IMG/VR virus record: IMGVR_UViG_3300046389_000196
Location: 1-22,082 of that record
DNA: 22,082 bases
Origin: a virus
Reading direction: 5' to 3' (one strand)
The notes beneath the pieces are model-generated. The model did no database searches. It was not told the origin of the DNA and was given only the letters and a program-made list of their open reading frames with translations. Shown here in pieces: positions 866 to 21,592 of this stretch (position 1 is its first letter; each line of letters starts with the position of its first letter). Position numbers and translations under genes: made by a program.

Positions 866-1440
866 TTAACTAGACCTTGCTGGTAACTGCGACCATTGAA
901 AGTTAGGGCTTGTTTGCGGTTCTGTCCATCCTTCTTGTAGGACACATGCACCCAGCCGCTGTTGGGTTTGCCGGACTCATAGTGTTCCAGTATCAACTGG
1001 TCATACTCTAGGTTGGCTTGAATCCAAGAAGCGACCTTGTGGTTATCGACCCCAATGATTTCAAAGTCAACAGCCTCCCCCTTACAGTGCTGACTGGTGG
1101 GCTTGCTGCCAATCTCTTCGCACAGAAACTCACTGCGGTAGCCGCTTGATACAATCACAGGGGCATTGAACTGGCTGCGCGTAGGCTCAAGGACTGCTTC
1201 ACACAACGCTCGAAGGGAGGAGATGTGTTCCTCTGTTGGGGTGTTGTCGAGGCCTAGCCGGGTCGCGGTCTGGCTCTTGGTCATCTCCTGCAAAGTAAAG
1301 TTAGGTGTGATCCGCCCTTTGGTGGGGGCGGGTTTACCCGCAGGAGTTACTACTTTTTTCCGCGCATACTCATCAGCTTGTCTGCACCCTTCACCCCAAA
1401 CGAACTTGTCACGGCGATAAACAAGAGATACTGATACCAC
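862..1440 (-). CDS. M15-family peptidase endolysin, start uncertain
   Basis: Cell-wall peptidase that would cleave peptidoglycan cross-links or stem peptides at the end of infection. The domain is Peptidase_M15 type (D,D-carboxypeptidase/L-Ala-D-Glu peptidase fold) from about residue 45 to 175, counted from the GTG at 1440. Motifs are NFTLQEM, then SSGYRS, then SQH118CKGEAVD125F, then WVH165VSY; H118, D125 and H165 are the expected zinc ligands. There is no signal peptide, so it needs a holin. The start is a real problem. GTG 1440 lies 91 bases inside the holin gene and has no ribosome site. There is no other ATG, GTG or TTG before the domain; the next are TTG 1293 and ATG 1284, already inside the conserved NFTLQEM block. 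The frame is -1 relative to the holin (see the slippery-site feature). Confidence 0.85.
   Translation of the reverse strand: MVSVSLVYRRDKFVWGEGCRQADEYARKKVVTPAGKPAPTKGRITPNFTLQEMTKSQTATRLGLDNTPTEEHISSLRALCEAVLEPTRSQFNAPVIVSSGYRSEFLCEEIGSKPTSQHCKGEAVDFEIIGVDNHKVASWIQANLEYDQLILEHYESGKPNSGWVHVSYKKDGQNRKQALTFNGRSYQQGLVK
1312..1359 (-). promoter_or_regulatory. Candidate -1 ribosomal frameshift site (A AAA AAG) with downstream hairpin
   Basis: On the minus strand the holin ends GGA AAA AAG TAG TAA. The heptamer A AAA AAG (1359-1353) is in the right phase for tandem -1 slippage and is the heptamer used in E. coli dnaX. It abuts the holin stop at 1352-1350. After a -1 slip the reading continues AAA AAA GTA GTA into the endolysin frame. 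Eleven bases downstream is a perfect 5-bp GC-rich hairpin, GCGGG-TAAA-CCCGC (1341-1328). An alternative 6-bp stem, CCGCCC/GGGCGG (1331-1312), shares bases with it. The spacer is a little longer than usual, and no clear upstream Shine-Dalgarno-like stimulator is seen. Confidence 0.45.
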
Positions 1441-1739
1441 TGCGGGAGCGTATCCAACACCGCGAACCCCTCCCGCACTTGCTGGGTAAGCGATGGAATA
1501 AAAACTAGAATTGCAGGAAGCATCAAAACAACAAGAGCAAACTCATCCTTCCACGAGCCTTTGGTTGCGTCAGCCATGTTGGCTTCCCAATCAATCTTGC
1601 CTGTTGCAATCTTCTTTTGAACGGCAGCGTCAGCCTTTGCCTTCTCGACCTTGACCTCTGCTTTGGCTTTGGTTTCTTGAACCTTGCCATCTACCCAGTT
1701 TCCGGCGATGCCAGCAACCGCACTAAAGATATTCATCAT
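1350..1739 (-). CDS. Holin, GTA three-TM-like family, 129 aa
   Basis: Probable holin that opens the inner membrane and releases the endolysin. The sequence resembles the GTA_holin_3TM family (PF11351): a charged, Lys/Ala/Glu-rich helical N-terminal part (about residues 18-48), a WKDEFALVVLMLPAILVFIP membrane segment (about 63-82), and an LPQWYQYLLFIAV segment (about 98-112) before a short basic tail. The length (about 130 aa) fits the family. The start is ATG 1739 in an ATGA overlap with the nuclease gene stop. The gene ends with a doubled stop (TAG TAA) right after a slippery A6G run, and the endolysin frame runs through its 3' end. The family call is from recalled motif similarity. Confidence 0.75.
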   Translation of the reverse strand: MMNIFSAVAGIAGNWVDGKVQETKAKAEVKVEKAKADAAVQKKIATGKIDWEANMADATKGSWKDEFALVVLMLPAILVFIPSLTQQVREGFAVLDTLPQWYQYLLFIAVTSSFGVKGADKLMSMRGKK

Positions 1740-2155
1740 TTCCTCTTCCTTACTTTATCCAATGCTTTGCGTATCTGCGTAGCTTCGGGTTCGTCAAACT
1801 CTGTAGCACGGACTGTTGTCCGCTTTTTCTCCACAGATGTAATACACTTTATCACGCACCTTCTTAGTGGCAAGGCCACGAAACAAACCAAGTCTGCGTC
1901 TTCACTATTGATAACGCGCTTTGATTTACTTCCCTTGCTGGTCATAAATTTATAGCGCAATCCACCAGACTGGCTAACGCTGGCGGCCTTTACTTCGACC
2001 CGATAACTTTCATTATTATCATCAAAGATTATTAAATCAAAACCCTCGTGATTTACTCGACAGCATTTCAAACCAGTCTCTTCAAAGACAGCTTCGGCTA
2101 TTAACTCCCCCACGCGACCCAGTTGATGTGCATTACGCACAGTCTGATAGCCCAC
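1736..2155 (-). CDS. PD-(D/E)XK endonuclease, resolvase-like, 139 aa
   Basis: Small nuclease of the PD-(D/E)XK superfamily, similar in layout to archaeal-type Holliday junction resolvases. Visible elements are RVGE17LIAEAVF on the first helix, GFD40LIIF on a strand, VE54VK56AAS as the (D/E)xK motif, and a DADLVCFVAL strand at 86-95. The basic C-terminal tail (KVRKRK) could bind DNA. The likely start is GTG 2155, placed directly after the TAA of the 75-aa gene (TAAGTG); there is no ATG before residue 71. It sits between a small membrane-protein gene and the holin, an odd place for a nuclease. A role in resolving or trimming packaging concatemers is possible but not shown. Confidence 0.65.
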   Translation of the reverse strand: MGYQTVRNAHQLGRVGELIAEAVFEETGLKCCRVNHEGFDLIIFDDNNESYRVEVKAASVSQSGGLRYKFMTSKGSKSKRVINSEDADLVCFVALPLRRCVIKCITSVEKKRTTVRATEFDEPEATQIRKALDKVRKRK

Positions 2156-2383
2156 TTACTTGTCCTTTTCTTCTAGCCTGTCTAGCTTATCAAGCCTACG
2201 CTGCGTTGACTGGTTAAAGAAAGTAAAAAGTTGAGTGATCTTGGATTCGCTATCTTTCAAGCGTTCATCCATTCTATCTGTTTTGTTTTCGAGAGAAGAT
2301 ATAGCCCGGCTAAACCACCAGAGCATAGCCATCGCTGCGGTGAGGATAGGCCAGTAAGCAAGAAGTGTCTCGCCAAAGTTCAC
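2156..2383 (-). CDS. Small membrane protein with coiled-coil tail, 75 aa
   Basis: One N-terminal hydrophobic segment (about residues 7-27, including the run LTAAMAMLWWF) is followed by a charged helical region with regular hydrophobic spacing (about 29-75), likely a coiled coil. This layout is shared by inner-membrane spanins, but also by many small phage proteins, so a spanin role is only a suggestion; no paired outer-membrane lipoprotein gene is seen. The start is GTG 2383, two bases after the stop of the 54-aa holin-like gene, and the stop abuts the GTG of the nuclease gene. Confidence 0.6.
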   Translation of the reverse strand: MNFGETLLAYWPILTAAMAMLWWFSRAISSLENKTDRMDERLKDSESKITQLFTFFNQSTQRRLDKLDRLEEKDK

Positions 2384-18981: not shown

Positions 18982-20514
18982 CTATACCACACCACCGCCT
19001 TGTTGCTGCGCTTGCATCTGCGCTATCATTTGTTGCATCTGTTGAATCTGTTCACGCTCGGCTTCGTCTCTGATTAGGTTATCAGGAACGCCAAACTTCT
19101 TAGCCAAGTAAACCGCTGTCTCTTCTGAGTCGATAAGCAAGTTGACCATCTCCGGCCCGAAGTTTGCACCAACTACCTCAAGGAATCTCGCAACAGTTGT
19201 GATGTCCTGATTAGACTGGGCTTGCGCCAAGGGAGATACACTCCGAATTTTTACTTCACGACCATTAACTGTTGGGAGATCAATGCGACCCTGCTTACGC
19301 AGAATGTAAACTACACGTTGCAGAATGGGCTGAACCATCTCTGCTTGCAAGCGACCAAAGGCAGAACCAATACGGCGGCTCAAGTCAGCCATGCGTTCTG
19401 CAATTTCGGTAGCCGTGGCGGGTGTCCGGTTCGGATCACCGAGCATATCATTATACAATGCGCGCTTAATGTTCATCCGCATGTCGTTAAGAACAAGATT
19501 GGCAACATCAAAGCTTCCGGCTGCCGCAACAGGCTGTAACCCATTTGAGCCGGGTGCTTTAGGAATGACAGTCCCCGGAACAAGATTGATCGTATCGACA
19601 TTGATAATCCCATCATCATCCATCTGGTAAATACCAGAGATAGCCATCTGTGCATTTTCCAATACAAGCTGGATTGTAAGGTTGGTTGTCTTAATTGCAG
19701 ACAGAGCGTTTACCAATGGGCCGCGACCATATACTTCGCCAGCAGCTTTAGACCAGCGGAAGCAAACAAACGGATTGCTGCCCACGCCTTCAAAGGTGTC
19801 TTCAAAGATTAACTCGCCATGAGTTTTATCAATGGCGTAGTAGCCGTAACGCTCTTGGTTGGGCTTGTCATACAGGCGACATACAACCTCAAGAACCTTG
19901 CACTTCTCCTCACCCTTGCGGTTAATCATATCCTGCATTTTGGGGGAGAGTTTCGCTTTGGGATAAACAATCTTTATGTCGTTATGGCGAATCTCACGCT
20001 CACGATATACATGGTCAATGCGGTCATCGGGGCCATTCTCAAGAACGACCTTTGGAAGGGGGATAGCACTGAAACGGATTGGGTTTACTGCATCTCCCTC
20101 TTCAACCAGCAAGCAACCAGTTCCGACAGCCAAGTCCATGAATGACTCATGCACCTCTTGGGCAAAGTTACTGTTTGCAAGAATCTCAAAGATATATTCT
20201 GTGACCTCATCAAGGCTGTTGTTAATTTCATCTGCTTCTTCGGGCGGCACTTCCGAGCCAGCAACCAAGTCAGACCAACGAGCGAAGTTAGGAACAAGCC
20301 CAGACTGCAAACGAGAGGCAAACTCTTGAACGCCAACTACCGCAGTCTCGTCAAAGATTCGGTCATCACGGCGTTGACCCGGCGCATTAAAGTAAAAGCC
20401 TTCACGCTGGGGGAGAGCATAGTCGTAACACTCTTGGAAGAGATCTTCAAAGGGAGTGCGTTGAGTTCGGGCAGTCTCATACTTCTTGATGTAATTTTTA
20501 GCTATTTTGTCCAT
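18982..20514 (-). CDS. Portal protein (head-tail connector), 510 aa
   Basis: The dodecameric portal through which DNA is packaged and ejected. It matches the podovirus head-to-tail connector family (PF12236) in length and motifs. These are RTPFEDLFQECYDYALPQRE near the N-terminus, the RIFDETAVVGVQEFASRLQS helix, VGTGCLLVEE, FVCFRWSKAAGEVYGRGPLV (about residues 249-268), and PNRTPATATEIAERM (about 363-377), followed by a long helical C-terminal part. It ends in a Gln/Met-rich tail (QIQQMQQMIAQMQAQQQ). The start ATG 20514 overlaps the TAA of the preceding small gene (TAATG), with AGAGG ten bases upstream as ribosome site. Confidence 0.92.
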   Translation of the reverse strand: MDKIAKNYIKKYETARTQRTPFEDLFQECYDYALPQREGFYFNAPGQRRDDRIFDETAVVGVQEFASRLQSGLVPNFARWSDLVAGSEVPPEEADEINNSLDEVTEYIFEILANSNFAQEVHESFMDLAVGTGCLLVEEGDAVNPIRFSAIPLPKVVLENGPDDRIDHVYREREIRHNDIKIVYPKAKLSPKMQDMINRKGEEKCKVLEVVCRLYDKPNQERYGYYAIDKTHGELIFEDTFEGVGSNPFVCFRWSKAAGEVYGRGPLVNALSAIKTTNLTIQLVLENAQMAISGIYQMDDDGIINVDTINLVPGTVIPKAPGSNGLQPVAAAGSFDVANLVLNDMRMNIKRALYNDMLGDPNRTPATATEIAERMADLSRRIGSAFGRLQAEMVQPILQRVVYILRKQGRIDLPTVNGREVKIRSVSPLAQAQSNQDITTVARFLEVVGANFGPEMVNLLIDSEETAVYLAKKFGVPDNLIRDEAEREQIQQMQQMIAQMQAQQQGGGVV

Positions 20515-20984
20515 TATTTAAAATACCTCTGAAAGAAACCAGCACCACCAGCTTCGCCGGACAATAAGGATGCCTTGCCTCGTTTACGCTGCATACCAAT
20601 AGTAGCTTGCTCTACCGCCTTCTCTCTGCGGCGACGAATTTCTTGAAACTCAGGTTGCTTTTGGACATCAGACTTAAGTTGTCCGCGCAAATCAGATGCA
20701 AGAGAACCAACAGTCTCGCCAAGCCCTTTCAGTTTTGAAGAATAATAAGAGCCAACCGCGCCGGGACTGCGCGATTTTTTTTGTATTTCTTTTGCTTCGG
20801 AATATGCTTTCTCAGACTCTTTCCTAAAGTGAGAAATAGTTCGAGGGTCAACGCCAGCCGAAGCGGCTTCCTTAAATAAAGATTCAGGAACAGAGTAAGA
20901 TGCAACAAAAGCAGCTTGCCTTTGTTTAGCTGCTAAAGCTTGACGCTTTCTCTGTCGTTTTTGTGCTGACTGAGATAATCCCAT
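20514..20984 (-). CDS. Small basic protein, paralogue B, 156 aa
   Basis: Unknown function. A basic N-terminus (QKRQRKRQALAAKQRQ) leads to a helical middle with EAASAGVDPRTI and a C-terminal block RREKAVEQATIGMQRKRGK then ASLL and GGAGFFQRYFK. The upstream neighbour has the same C-terminal block and the same EAA.AG.DPRT motif, so the two genes are tandem paralogues. Podoviruses often carry small proteins with a conserved Gly-rich C-terminal tail next to the portal; they are probably minor virion or packaging proteins, but no mechanism is visible. Both of its ends are TAATG overlaps. Confidence 0.7.
   Translation of the reverse strand: MGLSQSAQKRQRKRQALAAKQRQAAFVASYSVPESLFKEAASAGVDPRTISHFRKESEKAYSEAKEIQKKSRSPGAVGSYYSSKLKGLGETVGSLASDLRGQLKSDVQKQPEFQEIRRRREKAVEQATIGMQRKRGKASLLSGEAGGAGFFQRYFK
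20515..20640 (-). repeat. Direct repeat, copy 1 (3' end of paralogue B)
   Basis: This stretch aligns without gaps to 20985-21110, exactly 470 bases away. In the first 40 bases (20511-20550 against 20981-21020) I count three differences. It includes the stop codon and the overlapping start codon of the next gene. It is the DNA trace of a tandem gene duplication. Confidence 0.75.
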
Positions 20985-21592
20985 TATTTAAAATACCTTT
21001 GAAAGAAGCCAGCACCGCCAGTTTGACTTGAAAGAAGTGACGCTTTGCCACGTTTGCGTGTCATGCCAATAGCAGCTTGTTTTACAGCCTTTTCTCTACC
21101 GCGACGAATGCTCACCAAGTCTGCTTGCCGTGCAGCATCAGAGGTTAAGCTGGCCTTCGAGCTTTGAGTCTGCTCTGCAATAGCCTTTTCCCGCCTAATC
21201 CTTTGAGATGCAGAACTGCGTGGCCCTCTGCCTTTAAGTTCGGGCGTGGTGTAAGTCGAAATCAAACTTCTTTTTAATGCTTCAACTGTTCGAGGGTCAG
21301 AGCCAGCAGCAGCAGCTTCCGCTAGTTCTGGCTGTCCAATTTTTGCCAGTTCTGCTTGATAATTTTTTGTAAAAAGATCTGCTGTTTGTTGCTTTGTATA
21401 TTGTCGATAAGAAGCTTTGCCACGCCGAACAGAGTAAACAGGATCGGGAACACGACTAAAGATTGCAGAAGCAATATCGGGATCAACGTCTTTTGCCAAA
21501 CCCAATTCAGAAATAAGGTTTCGTTTAGCTTCGTGTCGACGTTTTTCACGAGCCTCTCTATTACGTTGGATAACTCCACTAGGCAGTCCCAT
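20984..21592 (-). CDS. Small basic protein, paralogue A, 202 aa
   Basis: Unknown function. It is longer than its downstream paralogue. A basic N-terminus (NREAREKRRHEAKRN) is followed by an insertion of about 50 residues not seen in paralogue B, then ELAEAAAAGSDPRT, and a C-terminal block RGREKAVKQAAIGMTRKRGK then ASLL and GGAGFFQRYFK. It is placed directly after the terminase large subunit with a TAATG overlap; AGGA seven bases upstream of ATG 21592 is a good ribosome site. A role at the portal vertex or in packaging is inferred only from location. Confidence 0.7.
   Translation of the reverse strand: MGLPSGVIQRNREAREKRRHEAKRNLISELGLAKDVDPDIASAIFSRVPDPVYSVRRGKASYRQYTKQQTADLFTKNYQAELAKIGQPELAEAAAAGSDPRTVEALKRSLISTYTTPELKGRGPRSSASQRIRREKAIAEQTQSSKASLTSDAARQADLVSIRRGREKAVKQAAIGMTRKRGKASLLSSQTGGAGFFQRYFK
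20985..21110 (-). repeat. Direct repeat, copy 2 (3' end of paralogue A)
   Basis: The partner of the repeat at 20515-20640: same register and same stop/start overlap. Identity is high over the first 40 bases and falls to roughly three quarters by eye further in. Both copies also carry the purine-rich ribosome site that serves the next gene (AAAGG here, AGAGG in the other copy). Confidence 0.75.

Follow-up and report, generated by a model that had tools for sequence, protein, structure and literature searches.

In the 22,082-nucleotide (nt) stretch of viral DNA analysed here (IMG/VR record IMGVR_UViG_3300046389_000196, hereafter the window), the endolysin appears to be made only by slippage of ribosomes at the end of the preceding holin-like gene. 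We place the probability that a programmed −1 ribosomal frameshift makes this enzyme at about 0.88 on the basis of comparisons of the gene junction among relatives. As judged from sequence, frameshifting is the only conserved route to translation of the endolysin in the lineage of the window. Relatives are referred to by L numbers. The features on which the analysis is built, all on the minus strand of the window, are as follows.

1350-1739 (-): holin-like membrane protein, 129 amino acids (aa), assigned to phrog_2524, a PHROG of unknown function; product of the zero frame and N-terminal portion of the predicted fusion
1438-1440 (-): GTG 1440, rejected start codon, out of frame with the holin-like gene, made up of the final base of a holin codon plus the TG of the Trp codon that follows
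1353-1359 (-): slippery heptamer A AAA AAG, in the right phase for a −1 slip
1350-1352 (-): zero-frame stop codon TAG, adjoining the heptamer; relatives have TAG or TAA here, displaced by one additional Lys codon in L115-L119
862-1353 (-): −1 frame, 163 aa, with the linker VVTPAGKPAPTKG and the Peptidase_M15_3 endolysin; no start codon of its own; ends at TGA 864-862
1347-1352 (-): 6-nt spacer between heptamer and predicted stem
1338-1346 (-): 5' arm of the predicted stem, CTCCTG followed by CGG
1285-1293 (-): 3' arm of the predicted stem, TTG CAG GAG, within the codons for NFTLQEM

A holin-like gene precedes an M15 endolysin in an uncultured marine phage group

On the minus strand of the window, a lysis block follows a set of structural genes (head-tail adaptor, major head protein, tail proteins, and internal virion protein) similar to the ones found in T7-like podoviruses. 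The order within the block is a 75-aa open reading frame (ORF), a PD-(D/E)XK-like ORF, the 129-aa holin-like protein, and the Peptidase_M15_3 endolysin. The nearest sequenced phage is Pelagibacter phage Hodr (head-tail adaptor, 61%; capsid protein, 53%), and no similar DNA was found among sequenced phages. The G+C content is 46% in the window versus 33% in Hodr. Phages of this group are uncultured and marine.

Three other loci of the window deserve description. The 75-aa ORF (2156-2383, minus strand) has an N-terminal hydrophobic segment and a charged, possibly coiled-coil tail; it has a relative in 5 of 10 related records and is a possible i-spanin or second holin. The PD-(D/E)XK-like ORF (1736-2155, minus strand) belongs to phrog_5018, matches Pfam PDDEXK_5 below the cut-off, and overlaps the start of the holin-like gene; 9 of the 10 related records have a relative of it, the exception being the record of L052. 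At 20514-21592 (minus strand), adjacent ORFs of 156 and 202 aa have nearly identical C termini (KRGKASLLS..GGAGFFQRYFK), as if by tandem duplication, and the 156-aa ORF is without a PHROG match.

We infer that the 129-aa protein is a holin on the basis of its position directly before the endolysin, its hydrophobic segments, and the annotation of its relatives. Its hydropathy profile has one strong hydrophobic segment (approximately residues 67 to 85) and one weaker segment (approximately residues 100 to 116), and its C terminus is positively charged. Relatives are annotated in phages as "putative holin," "TMhelix containing protein," or "DUF3154." The window protein itself did not match GTA_holin_3TM (PF11351), for which a weak match, below the cut-off (E 0.051), was obtained in 1 of 18 relatives. 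The AF2 model of the holin alone (pLDDT 62) is too uncertain for fixing its topology. Two holin subfamilies that are ∼33% identical, the window type and the L028 type, share the heptamer at their junction with this clade of M15 enzymes. Among the cultured holin relatives (HMO-2011, CRP-901, CRP-902, CRP-13, and Vibrio phages), none has an M15 domain in the −1 frame after the holin.

The enzyme encoded in the −1 frame matches Pfam PF08291 (E 1.4e-18; 67.5 bits against a cut-off of 23.2) and the endolysin family phrog_894 (E 8.8e-40), its residues H89, D96, and H136 are invariant among the relatives compared, and its best fold match in the PDB is the Zn DD-peptidase 1lbu. The AF2 model of the −1 segment has a mean pLDDT of 89.7, and only residues 1 to 8 lie in a segment below 50. 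A preliminary description of this DNA, made from the sequence alone, had proposed a linker of about 17 residues between holin and M15 domain. A linker is present, with a shorter length: the folded domain is predicted from about residue 14 of the −1 segment onward, which leaves ∼12 to 16 residues. Each of the 10 related records (18 to 35 kb, none known to be complete) encodes a single M15 protein and no more than one member of phrog_2524. A search of the window and nine of these records turned up neither a phage-lysozyme nor an Amidase_2 domain; therefore, M15 may be the only endolysin of these phages.

The slippery heptamer is invariant at junctions with the endolysin

The holin-like gene ends CGC GGA AAA AAG TAG TAA. 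After a −1 slip on the heptamer (1359-1353), reading would continue as GTA GTA ACT CCT..., translated VVTPAGKPAPTKGRITPNFTLQEM..., for 163 residues. The predicted fusion is 129 + 163 = 292 aa, in agreement with the preliminary description, which had placed the endolysin exactly in the −1 frame with a product of roughly 292 residues. A AAA AAG is among the most efficient slippery heptamers in Escherichia coli (PMC4066793).

Relatives of both proteins were gathered from IMG/VR and scored for heptamer, phase, and start codon. This yielded 37 distinct junction haplotypes in 12 lineages (<90% aa identity of the endolysin), counts that include the contig L178, whose holin is deleted. An in-phase A AAA AAG, the −1 relation, and an open linker were found in all 37 haplotypes and all 12 lineages. 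The linkers from holin stop to NF motif measure 26, 29, 35, 44, 47, 50, 56, or 59 nt, all of them 2 mod 3, and their sequences differ completely yet stay open in the −1 frame (e.g., in the window, L021, L052, L106, and L028). The alignment of relatives that the preliminary description had called for thus bore out its expectation, in that the heptamer, the −1 phase, and the absence of a start codon are kept in close and distant relatives.

As controls, we used 83 relatives of both holin types that end in Lys-Lys and have no such M15 frame downstream. None of the 83 has an in-phase A AAA AAG; many mixtures of AAA and AAG and of preceding bases are used instead. Two apparent exceptions (L104 and L105) are in fact truncated contigs of the L052 lineage. 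The difference between 30 of 30 frameshift junctions and 0 of 83 controls corresponds to a Fisher P of about 5e-28, a value that ignores shared ancestry. The holin of L190 is 99% identical to that of L028, yet its gene ends TTA AAG AAA TAA, and no M15 domain follows in the −1 frame. Synonymous variation gives the same picture: the fraction of synonymous differences is 0.513 in the body of the holin-like gene and 0.006 in its last four codons (two sequences left out of the count).

A scan of bacterial genomes with the pattern AAAAAAGTARNNRCTCCTG returned no holin/M15 pair among the matches listed, where one chance match with a low-complexity frame passed the ORF filter. Separately, the L028-type holins of L196, L199, L204, and L240 end AAA AAA TGA, and their downstream frames differ, some being long and open at −1; these ends are possible further slip sites.

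The endolysin frame lacks a usable start codon

Near the junction, the only ATG, GTG, or TTG codons of the −1 frame are GTG 1440, TTG 1293, and ATG 1284. The last two fall within the conserved and predicted-folded NFTLQEM block, and a start at either would cost the enzyme its predicted first strand and the conserved NF-T-L-Q-E. The proposal that the endolysin has no good start of its own was therefore upheld. M15 homologues outside the frameshift arrangement nearly all have an ATG (one has a GTG) 12 to 15 nt before the motif (M-K-L-S-K-N-F type). At the position of this canonical Met, frameshift forms mostly have Gly (GRIT, GRVS, GKIT, GYLS, and GRLS). An open downstream frame without a start codon is thus the rule in the window and most lineages, but not in L109-L113 and the L305 group (L305, L345, L353, L382, and L385), where an ATG is present.

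A predicted stem begins 6 nt downstream of the heptamer

Stimulators of bacterial frameshifting generally lie 5 to 8 nt downstream of the slippery site (PMC4066793). The predicted stem of the window starts at 6 nt, and the spacing is exactly 6 nt in the 19 haplotypes listed with a CTCCTG stem. It is a long-range pairing, CTCCTG(Y)...(G)CAGGAG, in which the core pairs join 1346-1341 with 1290-1285; the first six pairs are standard in all sequences counted. In the folding minimum of the window, CTCCTGCGG.. is paired with ..TTTGCAGGAG (−26.7 kcal/mol; z of −3.0 against shuffles). The mean folding z was −3.2 for 15 representatives versus −0.25 for 101 control junctions, and values below −2 were obtained for 11 of the 15 representatives versus 7% of controls. 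Across relatives, the stem persists despite complete replacement of its loop. Its 3' arm lies in conserved enzyme codons with low synonymous variation, the fraction of synonymous differences being 0.23 for TTG, 0.14 for CAG, and 0.00 for GAG, against 0.4 to 0.8, or about 0.6, for most other codons.

The stimulator suggested in the preliminary description, a GC-rich hairpin 11 nt downstream, did not hold up: its GCGGG/CCCGC pairing is disrupted in L010 and L012. Changes within the pairs of the conserved stem are one-sided (C-G, U.G, and U-A at pair 7; U-A to U.G at pair 5). No two-sided compensation was found in the main helix, and the shuffle control was not exceeded; this variation is compatible with a stem but is no proof of one. 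L115, L116, and L118 have a local hairpin instead and L028 has another fold, the structures of L028, L115, and L118 being weaker (z of −1.1 to −2.0). An Rfam search gave no match.

Relatives differ in their use of start codon, signal, and holin

The preliminary description had named an ATG directly before the NFTLQEM region in homologues as evidence against frameshifting. Such homologues exist, and relatives fall into four states.

State a: own ATG, no heptamer, and no stem (L192/L193); L177 likewise has its own ATG and no heptamer, with a different upstream gene
State b: heptamer, stem, and canonical ATG (L109-L113 and the L305 group)
State c: heptamer and no canonical ATG (the window and most lineages), with the stem in nearly all
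State d: holin deleted (L178, one contig, IMGVR_UViG_3300021958_000764, 2438-2530)

The homologues of state a have the ATG but not the signal, which argues for the frameshift mechanism. Those of state b keep both, and for them the objection stands in part: the fusion would be additional, not obligatory. In the L305 group, the retained ATG sits in the loop of the stem (MKLSPHFSLQEM), and this lineage probably makes both fused and free endolysin. In L178, an ATG overlapping the stop codon of the preceding gene reads MWGSLIGLIVNKKVEAPVVPEGYLSPNF in frame through a relic AAAAAAG into the endolysin. The N terminus of this reading frame is similar to that of L192-type holins (MWQALIGPV), and the 18.8-kb record retains no match to phrog_2524. 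We rejected a count of two separate holin losses (L178 and L381) because both are the same contig.

In the tree of M15 sequences, in which many branches are weakly supported, frameshift forms lie apart from most own-start forms, and L177 and L193 are nested among frameshift forms. Their position therefore reads as a reversion to an own start. Wherever loss of the signal is inferred, a different in-frame start is present, which would be expected if translation of the enzyme depended on the signal. The family thus offers natural versions with an own ATG and no signal, with signal and ATG, with the signal only, and with the holin lost. With these, one could test how programmed frameshifting arose and whether a free endolysin is needed.

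Other routes to the endolysin

Could the endolysin be translated by termination and reinitiation, in which ribosomes that finish at the TAG restart nearby on GTG, TTG, or a noncanonical codon and the stem regulates the coupling? The stop codon is close to the endolysin, a GTG overlaps it in some haplotypes (TAGTG in L002, L005, and L025), and L109-L113 and the L305 group have an ATG. Within the lineage of the window, however, no start codon occupies any shared position (TAGTAA, TAGCAA, TAACAA, and TAGATA are all found). Moreover, reinitiation would not require the −1 phase to stay fixed over eight different linker lengths or A AAA AAG to be invariant and in phase. We consider it unlikely as the main route, and it is a possible extra route where an ATG exists.

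Slippage of RNA polymerase on the A6 run could also yield mRNAs that fuse both frames, and there is a homopolymer run at the fusion point. However, six A residues are short for slippage by bacterial polymerase, every haplotype has AAG as the end of the heptamer and none extends the A run, and the RNA stem is conserved at a spacing suited to ribosomes. These observations make transcriptional slippage very improbable.

Less probable still is an ordinary overlapping gene with its start at GTG 1440, inside the holin-like gene, which the preliminary description had kept as an option. GTG can serve as a start codon, and in the window and its close relatives no stop interrupts the frame after it. However, in L106 and L109-L114, stop codons 28 to 31 nt ahead of the holin stop close the frame. 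The GTG itself arises as a side effect of a Trp codon of the holin, and TTG or ATG is found in its place elsewhere. The overlapped stretch of the holin-like gene is under no synonymous constraint (0.527 versus 0.513, or 0.53 versus 0.51); the absence of a drop in the last 31 holin codons therefore speaks against double coding from GTG 1440. A start there accounts for neither the frozen heptamer nor the stem, and automatic annotation would give the endolysin of the window this wrong N terminus.

We regard it as negligibly likely that the two frames are an artefact (an erroneous indel in the A run) or the remains of an in-frame fusion broken by a genuine frameshift mutation. The data are metagenome-derived contigs, but the same A6G and phase recur in 37 haplotypes of 12 lineages from many independent samples, and the catalytic residues of M15 are conserved.

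Proposed mechanism

Under programmed −1 frameshifting, ribosomes translating the holin-like gene would reach A AAA AAG, where the Lys-tRNAs would slip back by one base while the stem starting 6 nt downstream holds the ribosome. Most ribosomes probably stop at the TAG and release the 129-aa holin; the remaining ribosomes would enter the M15 frame and produce a 292-aa holin-linker-endolysin. For the host, we infer that slippage takes place at some rate, that the fusion is produced, and that the fused enzyme is active and works while anchored in the membrane. The positively charged C terminus suggests that both ends of the holin part are cytoplasmic, and together with the membrane segments, it would keep the endolysin in the cytoplasm until the membrane is opened. 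The enzyme would wait at the inner face of the membrane and reach the wall once holins open it, with a set fraction of holins carrying the enzyme. It may act tethered via the flexible linker or be cut free. We lean slightly toward an arrangement in which, in the lineage of the window, the only endolysin is solely holin-tethered, with no free endolysin gene; its dose relative to free holin would be set by the frameshift rate, and a fraction of the hole-formers would bring the enzyme to the hole.

Comparison with known systems

In textbook lysis, a separate holin (timing) and endolysin (killing) act independently. Coupling the two by frameshifting would, within a small genome, lock them at a fixed ratio and bring the enzyme to the membrane. 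We found no precedent for a frameshift-made holin-endolysin among the titles and abstracts of open-access papers, and the part of a long review of frameshifting that was covered had no match for holin or endolysin. Frameshifting at −1 on A AAA AAG is already well known and an in-frame holin-endolysin fusion has been reported; the frameshift-made version would be new.

The lysis gene of phage MS2 overlaps another gene, and ribosomes are thought to reinitiate there. Kastelein (1982) reportedly proposed that this gene depends on frameshifting, and Berkhout (1987) is said to have tied it to translation termination (both cited in PMC5009743). In contrast to MS2, the strong heptamer, fixed phase, and absent start codon of the window argue against reinitiation.

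The signal itself most resembles those of dnaX and IS911/IS3 (PMC4066793; PMC5009743), which share with the window an in-phase A AAA AAG, a downstream stem spaced within 5 to 8 nt, a downstream frame without a conserved start, and synonymous-site conservation over the signal. Unlike these systems, the window has no visible Shine-Dalgarno-like stimulator upstream of the heptamer, and the 3' arm of its stem lies inside conserved enzyme codons. The products also differ: slippage gives a shortened product in dnaX and a transposase in the insertion sequences, whereas in the window it would attach a wall hydrolase to a membrane protein.

With respect to the product, signal-arrest-release endolysins are likewise held at the membrane before lysis (PMC7912344). 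These enzymes have their own N-terminal signal-anchor (PMC7912344), whereas in the window, frameshifting would supply the anchor in the form of a holin-like protein that is also made on its own. Another counterpart is the natural in-frame holin-endolysin fusion of Clostridium sporogenes, of the TpeE family, in which the holin is N-terminal and the endolysin C-terminal in one polypeptide (PMC9527704), as predicted for the window. It is a plain in-frame fusion in a Gram-positive host, and every endolysin is fused (PMC9527704); its holin probably belongs to another family (TpeE/BhlA) than the window protein, which matches phrog_2524. By contrast, the two parts lie in different frames and not in a single ORF in the window and in every lineage with a holin, and the −1 slip would leave free holin beside the fusion.
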